From Verrucomicrobiota bacterium (lineage in GTDB: Bacteria > Verrucomicrobiota > Verrucomicrobiia > Opitutales > Opitutaceae): a DNA stretch of 64,000 nt. Position 1 is the stretch's first letter, and each line of letters starts with the position of its first letter. Below, piece by piece: positions 3,780-34,318 of this stretch. The notes under the pieces are model-generated. The model made no database searches, had not been told where the DNA came from, and saw only the letters and a list, made by a program, of their open reading frames with translations. Position numbers and translations under genes: made by a program. Location of the stretch: positions 1 through 64,000 of the forward strand of contig JAPLTN010000056.1 in assembly GCA_026398135.1 (NCBI GenBank), in the 5' to 3' direction.

Positions 3780-4166
3780 TCACGCAGCGTTTGCGAGCGC
3801 GGAGCTTCGGCGCGGTATATTCACACTGAGAATGCCATCGGAGAGATCCGCTGTGAGCGTGGAGTAGTCGAGGTCGCGACCGAGGCGCAAACGCAGTTCG
3901 TAGTCGAGCTGGAAGCTCTCCAGGTTGGCGGCGGCGAAATTAACCCGCACATTATGGGTCTTGCGGCCAACGACCACGAGATCGGGTCCGCGCACCACGA
4001 TTTCGACTCCGGCGGCATCCACACCGGGCAGGAAAACGGTCAGCTTCACGCGGTCGCCGTGCGGTTGGCAATCGTAGTGCGGGCTGCGCGTCTCGCCATT
4101 AACGGCGGAGTCGGAACGGCCCGGACGACGACTGGTGGACAGCGTGGGCGGAAGGATCGTGTTCAT
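3780..4166 (-). CDS. Small heat shock protein, Hsp20/alpha-crystallin family
   Basis: The 128-residue protein carries an alpha-crystallin beta-sandwich from about residue 28: 'HGDRVKLTVFLPGVDAAGVEIVV', 'DLVVVGRKT', 'NFESFQLDYELRLRLG'-like strands, and the closing 'LTADLSDGILSVNIPRRS', which ends with the usual G-x-L strand and an I-P segment near the C-terminus. Small Hsps bind unfolding clients without ATP. The N-terminal arm of about 27 residues is Ser/Arg-rich and short for the family, so oligomer size may be small. The ATG at 4166 follows an AGAGGG-like Shine-Dalgarno on the minus strand. A terminator is present downstream. Confidence 0.88.
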   Translation of the reverse strand: MNTILPPTLSTSRRPGRSDSAVNGETRSPHYDCQPHGDRVKLTVFLPGVDAAGVEIVVRGPDLVVVGRKTHNVRVNFAAANLESFQLDYELRLRLGRDLDYSTLTADLSDGILSVNIPRRSSALANAA

Positions 4167-7387: not shown

Positions 7388-7489
7388 GAAAGTATAATGG
7401 GGAGGGGAAACCACGGAGCGCAGGAACGATGCGGAGTGTGAGTTCGGAGGTGGTTCTCGCTATGCGAAGTGGAAATCCGCCATGTTGTC

Positions 7490-9052
7490 ATGGTGCTCAC
7501 TGGAACTTATCCGATTTTGAATTGTGACGAGGCGCGAGTCTTTGAGGCGGAGTATTTCGCGGGGGACGAAGCGCGCGAGTGGGCGGCTATGCGGGTGGCG
7601 GGGCGGGCGGTGGCCGACGGGGTGTTGCGGGATTATGCGGAGCTGGGCGAATTTCCCTCGAAGGCCCGCGTGCTGGTTTTGGTTGGTAAGGGGCATAATG
7701 GGGGCGACGCGCTCATCGCGGCCGCCGAGTTGCGTGCACGCTTTCCGGGTATTGCGGTGGATGTGTTGTTGGTTTTAGGCGAGCGGACTTTGCGGCCTTT
7801 GGCGCGGCGGTCTTTGGAGCTGGGAGCAGGGGGTGGAGAGCGCGGAGTTCGGCGGGTAGGCATGGACGGACGGGATTGGGAGTCGGGCTACGATGTGGTG
7901 TTGGACGGGGTGTTTGGGTTTCAGTTTAGGCCGCCGCTGGAGGGTGCGGTGGCCTTGGTTTTGGCGCGGGTTAACAAGTTTCCAATCCGGCTGCGGGCGG
8001 CGGTGGATTTGCCCAGCGGACTGGATGCGGCGGACGCGTTTCGGGCGGATTTCACTTACGCGACGGGGAGCGTGAAATCGCCGTTGCTCACGTTAACGAA
8101 CGCGGGACGGGTGCGTTTTATAGACCTCGGGTTCCACGGAAAGTGTAACCAATTTGGTTACACTATGCTGGGGTTGGGGGAGGGGGTGCTGGAGGGGTTG
8201 AGGGGGTTGAGGGCGGCGGGGTGTGATAAACGCACGTTTGGGCAGGTGTTGTTAGTGGCCGGGTCGCGGCGGTATGCGGGGGCGGCGTTGATGGCGACGC
8301 TGGCGGCTTTGCGTTCGGGGGCGGGCTTGGTCACGGCGGCGGTGCCGGAATCGCTCGTGCCGGCGTTTGTCGCGCAGGTGCCGGAGGCGATGTGGTTGGG
8401 CTTGCCGGAGACGCCGGACGGGGGGCTGGCCTTGGAGGGGCTCGGGCTGGTGCGCGAGGCGTTCGGGCGGGCGACGGCGGTGGTGCTGGGGCCGGGCTTG
8501 GGGACGGAACGGGAAACCTTGGCGCTGGCGGCGGAGATTGTGGCTGCTTGTCCGAGGCCGCTGGTGATCGATGCGGATGCGTTGCGGCCGGAGGTAGTGG
8601 GGCGGGGGAGCGCGGCGCGGGTGCTCACACCTCATGCGGGCGAATGGGCGCGGATCGCGGAGGTGGTGCCGAAGGGCGCGGTGGTGGTGCGCAAGGGGCC
8701 GATCACGCGGATCGAGACGGCGGGAGCGGGGGGAGGGGAAGCTGGTAGAGCTGGCAAGCTGTTAGAGCTAGTAAAGGGGAGTAGCGCCGGGAGCGGGGAG
8801 CGGGAGGCGGTTTACCATAGTTTTTTCGGCGGGCCGGTTTTGGCTCGGGGCGGGAGCGGGGACGTGTTGGCGGGTTTGATCGGCGGTTTGTTGGCGCAGG
8901 CACCGGAGGATGCGCTGGGGGCGGCGGCACGCGGGGTGGTGTGGCACGGAATGGCGGCGGATGCGCTGGCGCGCGCTCGCGGACAGGTGGCGGTGCGGAC
9001 GACGGAGCTGCTGGACTTTTTCGGGCCGGTGTTGCGGGATTCACGGTCATGA
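7490..9052 (+). CDS. nnr: Bifunctional NAD(P)H-hydrate repair enzyme (epimerase plus ADP/ATP-dependent dehydratase)
   Basis: Repairs hydrated NADH/NADPH. The N-terminal YjeF_N epimerase domain shows 'LVGKGHNGGDALIAAAEL' and 'VDLPSGLDAAD'. The C-terminal dehydratase domain shows 'GQVLLVAGSRRYAGAALMA', 'VLGPGLGTERE', 'LVIDADALRP', 'LTPHAGEWARI' and the nucleotide-binding 'LARGGSGDVLAGLIGG'. Length is 520 residues. Two segments look foreign. Residues about 218-227 (KCNQFGYTML), between the domains, are encoded by a 28-bp palindromic repeat found elsewhere in the window. Residues about 411-436 in the dehydratase domain, just before YHSFFGG, are encoded by a G-rich/AGCT repeat. Both keep the frame and the catalytic motifs remain, so the enzyme is probably active. 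The ATG at 7490 is preferred over an in-frame GTG at 7469. The stop overlaps dprA (ATGA). Confidence 0.88.
   Translation: MVLTGTYPILNCDEARVFEAEYFAGDEAREWAAMRVAGRAVADGVLRDYAELGEFPSKARVLVLVGKGHNGGDALIAAAELRARFPGIAVDVLLVLGERTLRPLARRSLELGAGGGERGVRRVGMDGRDWESGYDVVLDGVFGFQFRPPLEGAVALVLARVNKFPIRLRAAVDLPSGLDAADAFRADFTYATGSVKSPLLTLTNAGRVRFIDLGFHGKCNQFGYTMLGLGEGVLEGLRGLRAAGCDKRTFGQVLLVAGSRRYAGAALMATLAALRSGAGLVTAAVPESLVPAFVAQVPEAMWLGLPETPDGGLALEGLGLVREAFGRATAVVLGPGLGTERETLALAAEIVAACPRPLVIDADALRPEVVGRGSAARVLTPHAGEWARIAEVVPKGAVVVRKGPITRIETAGAGGGEAGRAGKLLELVKGSSAGSGEREAVYHSFFGGPVLARGGSGDVLAGLIGGLLAQAPEDALGAAARGVVWHGMAADALARARGQVAVRTTELLDFFGPVLRDSRS
8142..8169. repeat. 28-bp palindromic repeat, copy 1, inside nnr
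   Basis: A 23-bp palindrome (AGTGTAACC ... GGTTACACT, 8142-8164) is followed by ATGCT. The 28 bases match exactly, in inverse or direct orientation, those at 34168-34195 and 34291-34318. This copy is translated as part of the interdomain linker of nnr. The following GGGGTTGGGGG also resembles the G-rich flank of the copy at 34291. Confidence 0.9.
8738..8774. repeat. AGCT-periodic 37-bp repeat inside nnr
   Basis: AGCT occurs four times at 8-9 base spacing (GAAGCTGGTAGAGCTGGC.. onward). It aligns with 13841-13877 at 31 of 37 positions by hand count. Both copies lie beside G-rich 'GGGAGCGGGGAGCG' tracts. In this copy the sequence is translated within the nnr dehydratase domain. Confidence 0.75.
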
Positions 9053-19604: not shown

Positions 19605-20001
19605 GGTGGGTCGAGTGGACTAGGTCAGTCGCGATGGTGGAGGGCAAGGGCAAGCACGGTGGGTTGGAGGAGGTTAAGTATTACGCAGATCGGTGTGATG
19701 CGGAGAGAGGCGGATATTTTGCGTGATTTAACGCAGGTGCGGGAAAGCGCAGGTTTATCCTAGGCCGCCAGCTGCTCCGCCGATGCCGTGCATGTTAAAG
19801 GCAAAGTAACCCAATAGGTTACTTGATGCAGGGGGCTTTGCGGGGGGGGAAGCGAGGGGCAATGGAGGGCGGGGTGGTTTAGGGTGGGGGGCGCAGCGTC
19901 GGGGTGGGTGGTATTATTGGTGAGTCGATTGGGTAAACAGGCGTGTCCTGCCTTGCTTCGGCGAGGGGAGGGAGGCTGAGTGCTGGTCAGTTTTTATCTT
20001 C
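19605..20001. other. 397-bp spacer between divergent coaD and pgsA
   Basis: No gene is supported. It should hold the promoters of coaD (minus) and pgsA (plus), but I cannot assign boxes. It includes a palindrome at 19804-19824 (separate entry) within a run of G-rich DNA. Confidence 0.5.
19804..19824. repeat. Palindrome related to the 28-bp repeat family
   Basis: AAGTAACC (19804-19811) and GGTTACTT (19817-19824) form a perfect 8-bp inverted repeat around CAATA, followed by GATGCAGGGGG. The GTAACC..GGTTAC core, the AT-rich centre and the ATGC-plus-G-run flank resemble the units at 8142, 34168 and 34291, but it is not identical. It could be a diverged copy or an operator. Confidence 0.6.
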
Positions 20002-34167: not shown

Positions 34168-34195
34168 AGCATAGTGTAACCAAATTGGTTACACT
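34168..34195. repeat. 28-bp palindromic repeat, copy 2
   Basis: AGCAT at 34168-34172 is followed by the 23-bp palindrome AGTGTAACC..GGTTACACT at 34173-34195. The complementarity here extends outwards to about 21-base arms (ACTACAGCAT.. and ..ATACTGCAGT) with two mismatches. The 28 bases are identical, in the reverse orientation, to 8142-8169 and 34291-34318. Confidence 0.9.
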
Positions 34196-34290: not shown

Positions 34291-34318
34291 AGTGTAACCA
34301 ATTTGGTTACACTATGCT
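34291..34318. repeat. 28-bp palindromic repeat, copy 3
   Basis: The 23-bp palindrome at 34291-34313 is followed by ATGCT. It has the same orientation as the copy in nnr and is inverted relative to copy 2. The downstream CGGGGCGGGG tract parallels GGGGTTGGGGG after the nnr copy. Confidence 0.9.

Follow-up and report, generated by a model that had tools for sequence, protein, structure and literature searches.

Tagless palindromes at shared positions in an Opitutaceae genus, with letters that differ between species

How does a short palindrome come to be read in frame inside a protein gene and to stand, letter for letter, in intergenic DNA of the same genome? The window, by which we mean the whole 64,000-nucleotide stretch of Opitutaceae DNA analysed here, raises this question in the gene nnr; it lies on contig 57 of a 3.39-Mb genome in 117 contigs (G000). 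Three identical 28-bp palindromic units had been described in it by the initial annotation, and we found AGTGTAACCAATTTGGTTACACTATGCT at all three places, on the + strand at 8142–8169 and 34291–34318 and on the − strand at 34168–34195. Among 100 dinucleotide shuffles, none contained a match to the 23-bp core within 3 mismatches. The palindromes are genuine and go beyond what chance would give. The window's features are as follows.

7469–9052, + strand: nnr, with YjeF_N and Carb_kinase domains and the palindrome in the linker
8142–8164, + strand: 23-bp palindrome of type A, read in frame within nnr
8165–8169, + strand: ATGCT tail of the nnr copy
19806–19822, − strand: GTAACCTATTGGGTTAC, a palindrome of type B and the fourth superfamily member within the window, not listed in the initial annotation, intergenic according to a crude gene finder
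34173–34195, − strand: A-type palindrome, intergenic, with its ATGCT tail at 34168–34172
34291–34313, + strand: A-type palindrome, intergenic, in the orientation opposite to the preceding copy, with its tail at 34314–34318

The nnr palindrome and its family in G000

The nnr palindrome encodes KCNQFGYTML, residues 225–234 of the open reading frame that starts at 7469, between the Pfam matches YjeF_N (41–194) and Carb_kinase (260–516); the ORF and domain positions bear out the predicted in-frame reading within the linker. Three exact copies of the 28-mer, ATGCT included, exist in G000, every one inside the window. The ATGCT tail occurs in 3 of the 22 A copies, these being the window's three, and the remaining A copies mostly go on with ACTTT; the 28-mer is not the repeating unit that it had been taken for.

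The genome-wide family that had been suspected does exist. Its core is a 17-bp hairpin, GTAACC-N5-GGTTAC, present in 75 copies; a search for GTAACC-N(3–8)-GGTTAC gave 75 places, with a centre of 5 nt in each. These fall into discrete forms, A (22 copies, including that in nnr), B (26), C (25), and other variants (2), with the centres AATTT (one AATAT) in A, TATTG in B, and TATTA in C. The 21-mer core of A matched 21 places within 2 mismatches, 20 of them exactly, and a reversed control matched none. Centre and flanks go together: the A centre is accompanied by AGT on the left in 20/22 copies and by ACT on the right in 20/22, and the non-A copies have AA before them in 52/53 cases and TTT or TTG after them in 50/53. 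The TATTG centre outnumbers its flipped form 26:1. This linkage and orientation bias indicate that the forms travel as blocks. The A form often lies within CCCGGMAAAGT..ACTTTKCCGGG, and many B and C copies, on the opposite strand, read CAAA-GTAACCyAATAGGTTAC-TTGATGCTkGGGG. MITEs have terminal inverted repeats, target duplications, and a parent IS; by eye, we saw no longer shared body in the 28 nt on each side of the 75 copies.

The copies are clustered, with 10 neighbour gaps below 500 bp where ~0.8 are expected, and according to the crude gene finder they do not avoid divergent promoters (15/53 non-A copies). Because this gene finder missed nnr and a TatD-like gene, the in-gene numbers given below are minima taken from aligned proteins. 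A few copies in G000 and in its relative G003 lie at contig ends, where an assembly artefact is possible; the majority lie elsewhere. Transcription terminators were rejected on inspection: the GC arms enclose the A/T runs, and copies also occur at divergent promoters.

Shared slots with differing cassettes

Close nnr orthologues were obtained from ten genomes, and the linker palindrome stands at the same spot in 9/10 species, in several of them with no length change relative to the palindrome-free gene of G010. The initial annotation had taken the palindrome for a linker insert and had predicted its absence from close relatives; instead, 8/9 of the other orthologues retrieved also have it, and the linker, measured from (I/L)DLGF to DKRTFG, is 39 residues long both in G010 and in palindrome-bearing G003, compared to 41 in G000. 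Codon for codon, the G010 linker resembles a decayed form of that in G004. Most orthologous palindromes differ from G000 in their letters; the one in G008 is imperfect and that in G002 has 8-bp arms of the GTCAA type. Neither result that would have told against the initial reading was seen: the genome has further copies of the family, and only G006 (NQFGYKML) has linker residues close to those of G000. The linkers of G012 and G013 carry two GTCACC copies each and are 31 residues longer than that of G000.

The suggested likeness to the palindromic elements of Rickettsia is a fair one. Seven further A copies are in frame in other G000 proteins that align with G003. They lie in genes that we take, from sequence motifs, to be CysJ-like (1), UvrA-like (3), and TatD-like (1), and in one more gene (2), and most aligned in-gene A copies use the single frame CN(Q/H)(F/I)GYT. 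In the CysJ-like gene, palindromes occupy the same codons before PRLYS in four species, as A in G000, B in G003, and GTCACC in G012 and G013, the last two genes being one codon shorter just upstream. The three A palindromes of the UvrA-like gene (L014, G000:C73:45281-45403) stand in frame and use two reading frames between them, compared to one palindrome in G003, and one copy at locus L018 in G000 comes with 84 bp, or 28 residues, more than G003. Swaps at the same codons, taken together with the length gains at L018, in the UvrA-like gene, and in nnr of G012 and G013, indicate that both rewriting and growth happen.

Across the genome, automated pairing by flanks placed a G003 copy at the position of 58/75 G000 copies; the 58 pairs correspond to 55 distinct G003 copies, two (L009 and L144) are weak, and the pairing missed L012, which individual alignment pairs with a C copy. 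Pairs of the same form (G000–G003) comprised A–A 1, B–B 13, and C–C 18, and pairs of different form A–B 8, A–C 4, B–C 7, and C–B 4, with 3 others. Seventeen G000 copies (A 9, B 6, C 2) have no partner in G003, which is 92% complete. In the 44 non-A pairs that scored at least 400, two of which have variant centres, the arms showed 0/528 mismatches and every core mismatch fell in the centre (24/220), at a flank identity of 83% within 100 bp.

Among 14 A copies aligned individually to G003, 7 face B or C (L001, L005, L012, L013, and L014, together with L004, which has poor flanks, and L017, aligned on one side only), L002 faces A, L003 faces another inverted repeat, L010 gave no clear alignment, and at four (L009, L016, and both L018 copies) G003 has no palindrome. 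Automated pairing sets the A copies of nnr and of the 34-kb spacer opposite B copies, giving nine sites with A in G000 and B or C in G003. Judged by position only, six loci with B or C in G000 hold A in G007, and at nine loci both genomes have A; in view of the latter nine, a large share of the A copies may just be old. Also by position only, GTCACC copies in G012 lie near G003 B/C slots at L308/L175 and L319, L320/L073, and C copies of G010 lie near slots L151, L001, and L085; many other cross-dialect position matches did not coincide with any palindrome. At the L003 slot, the inverted repeat in G003 (L233, G003:C70, near 3890–4010) is longer and imperfect, TTAACCACGGATTACAC..GTGTAATCTGTGGTTAA.

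Beyond the core, outer arms are complementary within a copy and different between copies. At least 12 further paired bases were present in 7/21 A copies (shuffled partners: mean 0.5, maximum 3 in 1000 shuffles), and at least 8 in 15/74 non-A copies of G003 (shuffled 1.6, maximum 7); outer-arm pairing of the non-A copies in G000 was not above chance, with at least 8 further bases in 3/52 (0.95, maximum 5). The 44 non-A pairs show 20 compensatory differences, compared to 6.4 after shuffling (maximum 18; 0/1000 shuffles reach 20), and the 11 pairs of A with non-A show a weak excess (41 compared to 32; 13/1000 shuffles reach the observed value). Template switching at hairpins would give compensatory arm differences of this kind (PMC8794818).

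Dialects across the genus and beyond

Counts of the GTAACC form in 15 genomes of the genus range from 77 in G003 and 75 in G000 through G007 (37), G002 (36), G006 (22), G008 and G010 (15 each), G005 (12), G012 (10), G004 (7), G013 (6), G001 (5), and G014 (1) to none in G009 and G011. The GTCACC form is found 53 times in G012 and 36 times in G013, and the remaining 13 genomes hold 0–3 copies each. From what stands in the nnr slots of G001 and G004 we predicted a third form, GTCAAT, and a search for GTCAAT-N(3–7)-ATTGAC then found it in G002 (34), G004 (14), G001 (12), G010 (5), and G003 (1), with none in the other 10 genomes. These two types also occupy nnr slots, GTCACC in G012 and G013, and GTCAAT in G001, G004, and approximately G002. 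Two dialects can share a genome, as with 36 GTAACC and 34 GTCAAT copies in G002 and with 10 GTAACC and 53 GTCACC copies in G012; of the 55 palindromes in the G012 loci that were fetched, only 5 were of mixed dialect. At L304, L305, and L309 in G012, GTCACC palindromes form arrays of five to seven, spaced 44 to ~200 bp apart.

The A 21-mer, with up to 2 mismatches, was present in 13/95 genomes, three of them outside the genus. A scan of GTDB contigs, from which records of the window's own genome were possibly omitted, found the exact A core in 30 stretches, in metagenome-assembled genomes titled Opitutaceae bacterium or Akkermansia muciniphila. The palindrome-bearing contigs at L203, L204, L207, L208, L210, L222, and L224 bear the latter title, and such titles may be wrong. 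In G010, the single complete genome, whose origin we placed by GC skew and by the dnaA-like gene that stands at base 1, 15/18 dialect palindromes lie clustered in the origin-side half (17/20 when two chance-like matches are included).

Proposed in-place overwriting and its rivals

These results suggest that palindromes are overwritten in place, besides being freshly inserted. REP-like hairpin cassettes, each made of a 6-bp arm, a 5-nt centre, a second 6-bp arm, and a few to ~12 neighbouring bases, would occupy old, fixed chromosomal slots, and the content of a slot would be replaced by another cassette from the same cell, either through ectopic conversion or through a putative enzyme that exchanges hairpins specifically. 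Overwriting of this kind would keep the copies within a genome identical and could let one version take over many slots; template switching during replication would then mend or extend the arms with locus-specific complementary sequence, and copies in protein linkers would survive because the palindrome preserves open reading frames. Shared slots, discrete cassettes, differing cassettes at orthologous slots, and symmetric arms are what we observe; how a cassette is copied, by which enzyme, and in what direction and order the swaps ran are what we infer. We give this whole reading a probability of about 45%. The linkage of centre and flanks, the scarcity of intermediates, and the same-register swaps in coding sequence favour overwriting over point-by-point change. 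Against it, conversion between sequences of 17–40 bp would fall far below the usual homology lengths, and we found no enzyme for it, the 32 Y1 loci described below being without a dialect hairpin. The net gains noted above, the seven of 14 individually aligned A copies that do not face B or C (four with an empty G003 site), the nine loci at which G007 also has A, the 17/75 unpaired copies, the chance-level arms of non-A copies in G000, and the weak compensatory excess in pairs of A with non-A also count against overwriting.

A serious rival, which we nevertheless think unlikely to be the answer, holds that the palindromes are conserved sites for a dimeric DNA-binding protein, a nucleoid or chromosome organiser or a global regulator, and that dialects track its specificity. 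Chromosome-organising sites of the matS, Noc, and SlmA type each have a sequence-specific binding protein, and arms that do not change while flanks drift and the centre alone varies are compatible with a candidate site of this kind. So are half-sites 11 bp apart, slots retained in coding sequence, indifference to divergent promoters, and, in G010, a weak origin-side bias with many clustered sites. A co-evolving protein would, however, require several coordinated changes at many sites, and it does not readily account for centres and flanks linked as blocks, for two dialects coexisting in G002 and in G012, for the rarity of mixed palindromes, or for locus-specific outer arms. Independent insertion, recurring at the same tolerant spots, is close to the view of the initial annotation and could explain the in-frame length gains and the prevalence of one frame among in-gene A copies; it is very improbable given an nnr linker occupied in nine of ten species, several at the length of palindrome-free G010, and a CysJ-like gene occupied at the same codons in four. 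The more general proposition, that a tagless family keeps inherited positions while its letters are replaced genome-wide at intervals, a new dialect overwriting the old, genes included, either by an undescribed form of hairpin copying or by way of a co-evolving binding protein, is one that we hold only tentatively.

The size, copy number, and close clustering of the palindromes would also fit ordinary REP elements, which a RAYT (Y1 transposase) would spread by way of their single-stranded hairpins. The family Opitutaceae includes the REP-rich Opitutus terrae (PMC3733652), and G000 has multiple copies of a 332-aa Y1 transposase (L159:58-1053; contig edges C94, C95, C82, C27, C26, C64, and C88). 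We nonetheless consider this explanation improbable. GTAG or its complement lies within 12 nt of 4/75 copies and CGTC of 3/75, no RAYT gene stands beside a palindrome among the loci examined, and 0/32 fetched Y1 loci (~3 kb each, out of 35 matches across the 15 genomes, of which several are incomplete) carry a dialect hairpin. RAYT mobilisation was rejected because neither the five Y1 genes of G000 nor the other loci examined in the genus carry one; the multicopy element was set aside as a parent for the same reason, in the stretches examined. A relation between the 332-aa gene and palindrome number seemed hinted at, but G002 (79% complete, 36 copies), which gave no Y1 match, and G007 (83% complete) are palindrome-rich and without a match to that gene.

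Published REPs (PMC3733652) are short dispersed palindromes with GTAG or CGTC tags, some clustered and some in ORFs including uvrA; intragenic GTAG REPs are most numerous in O. terrae, and two Xanthomonas species have different REPs at about the same recB site. REPs inside genes are thus already published. The A/B/C palindromes resemble REPs in being short (core 17–23 bp plus flanks, compared to 20–40 bp in REPs), numerous, and clustered, and differ in that they lack the tag, have no RAYT next to the copies examined, and swap type at many conserved slots. Like the palindromic elements of Rickettsia (PMC10969869), they stand in frame in unrelated genes; those elements are ~150 bp long, whereas ours have a core of 17–23 bp, are mostly intergenic and, in nnr, bring no net insert. 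Near-identical short palindromes of clade-specific type are shared with REPINs (PMC3116915) and RAYT-dependent REP classes (PMC3686654, PMC8266576), but here pairs are in the minority and a cognate RAYT was not found. As in the template-switch hairpins of PMC8794818, complementary multi-base changes create or mend stems, with the difference that compensatory changes here surround a constant repeated core. Among the matches listed in our search of open-licence papers, none reported this tagless family or dialect swaps at conserved slots; fixed slots with swapped letters and species dialects are apparently new.

That REP-like repeats are identical within a genome and different between species is an old question, for which Higgins et al., as cited in PMC3116915, are said to have proposed gene conversion in 1988. 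A genus with the same slots and different cassettes makes it testable site by site, with exact register at the coding slots.

Several Y1 loci have features of their own. Pieces of the 332-aa gene lie at contig ends, with AGGGACAGGTTAAATATG upstream in three G000 copies and in the G003 copy. At L160, a 197-aa Y1 transposase frame is flanked by near-identical palindromes GGTCGTCGCTTGYCGACGACC (1748–1769 and 2497–2518), a candidate REPtron unrelated to the A/B/C palindromes. In G010, three equal-scoring Y1 transposase matches follow one another at a regular 836-bp spacing (G010:C1:723729-725730).
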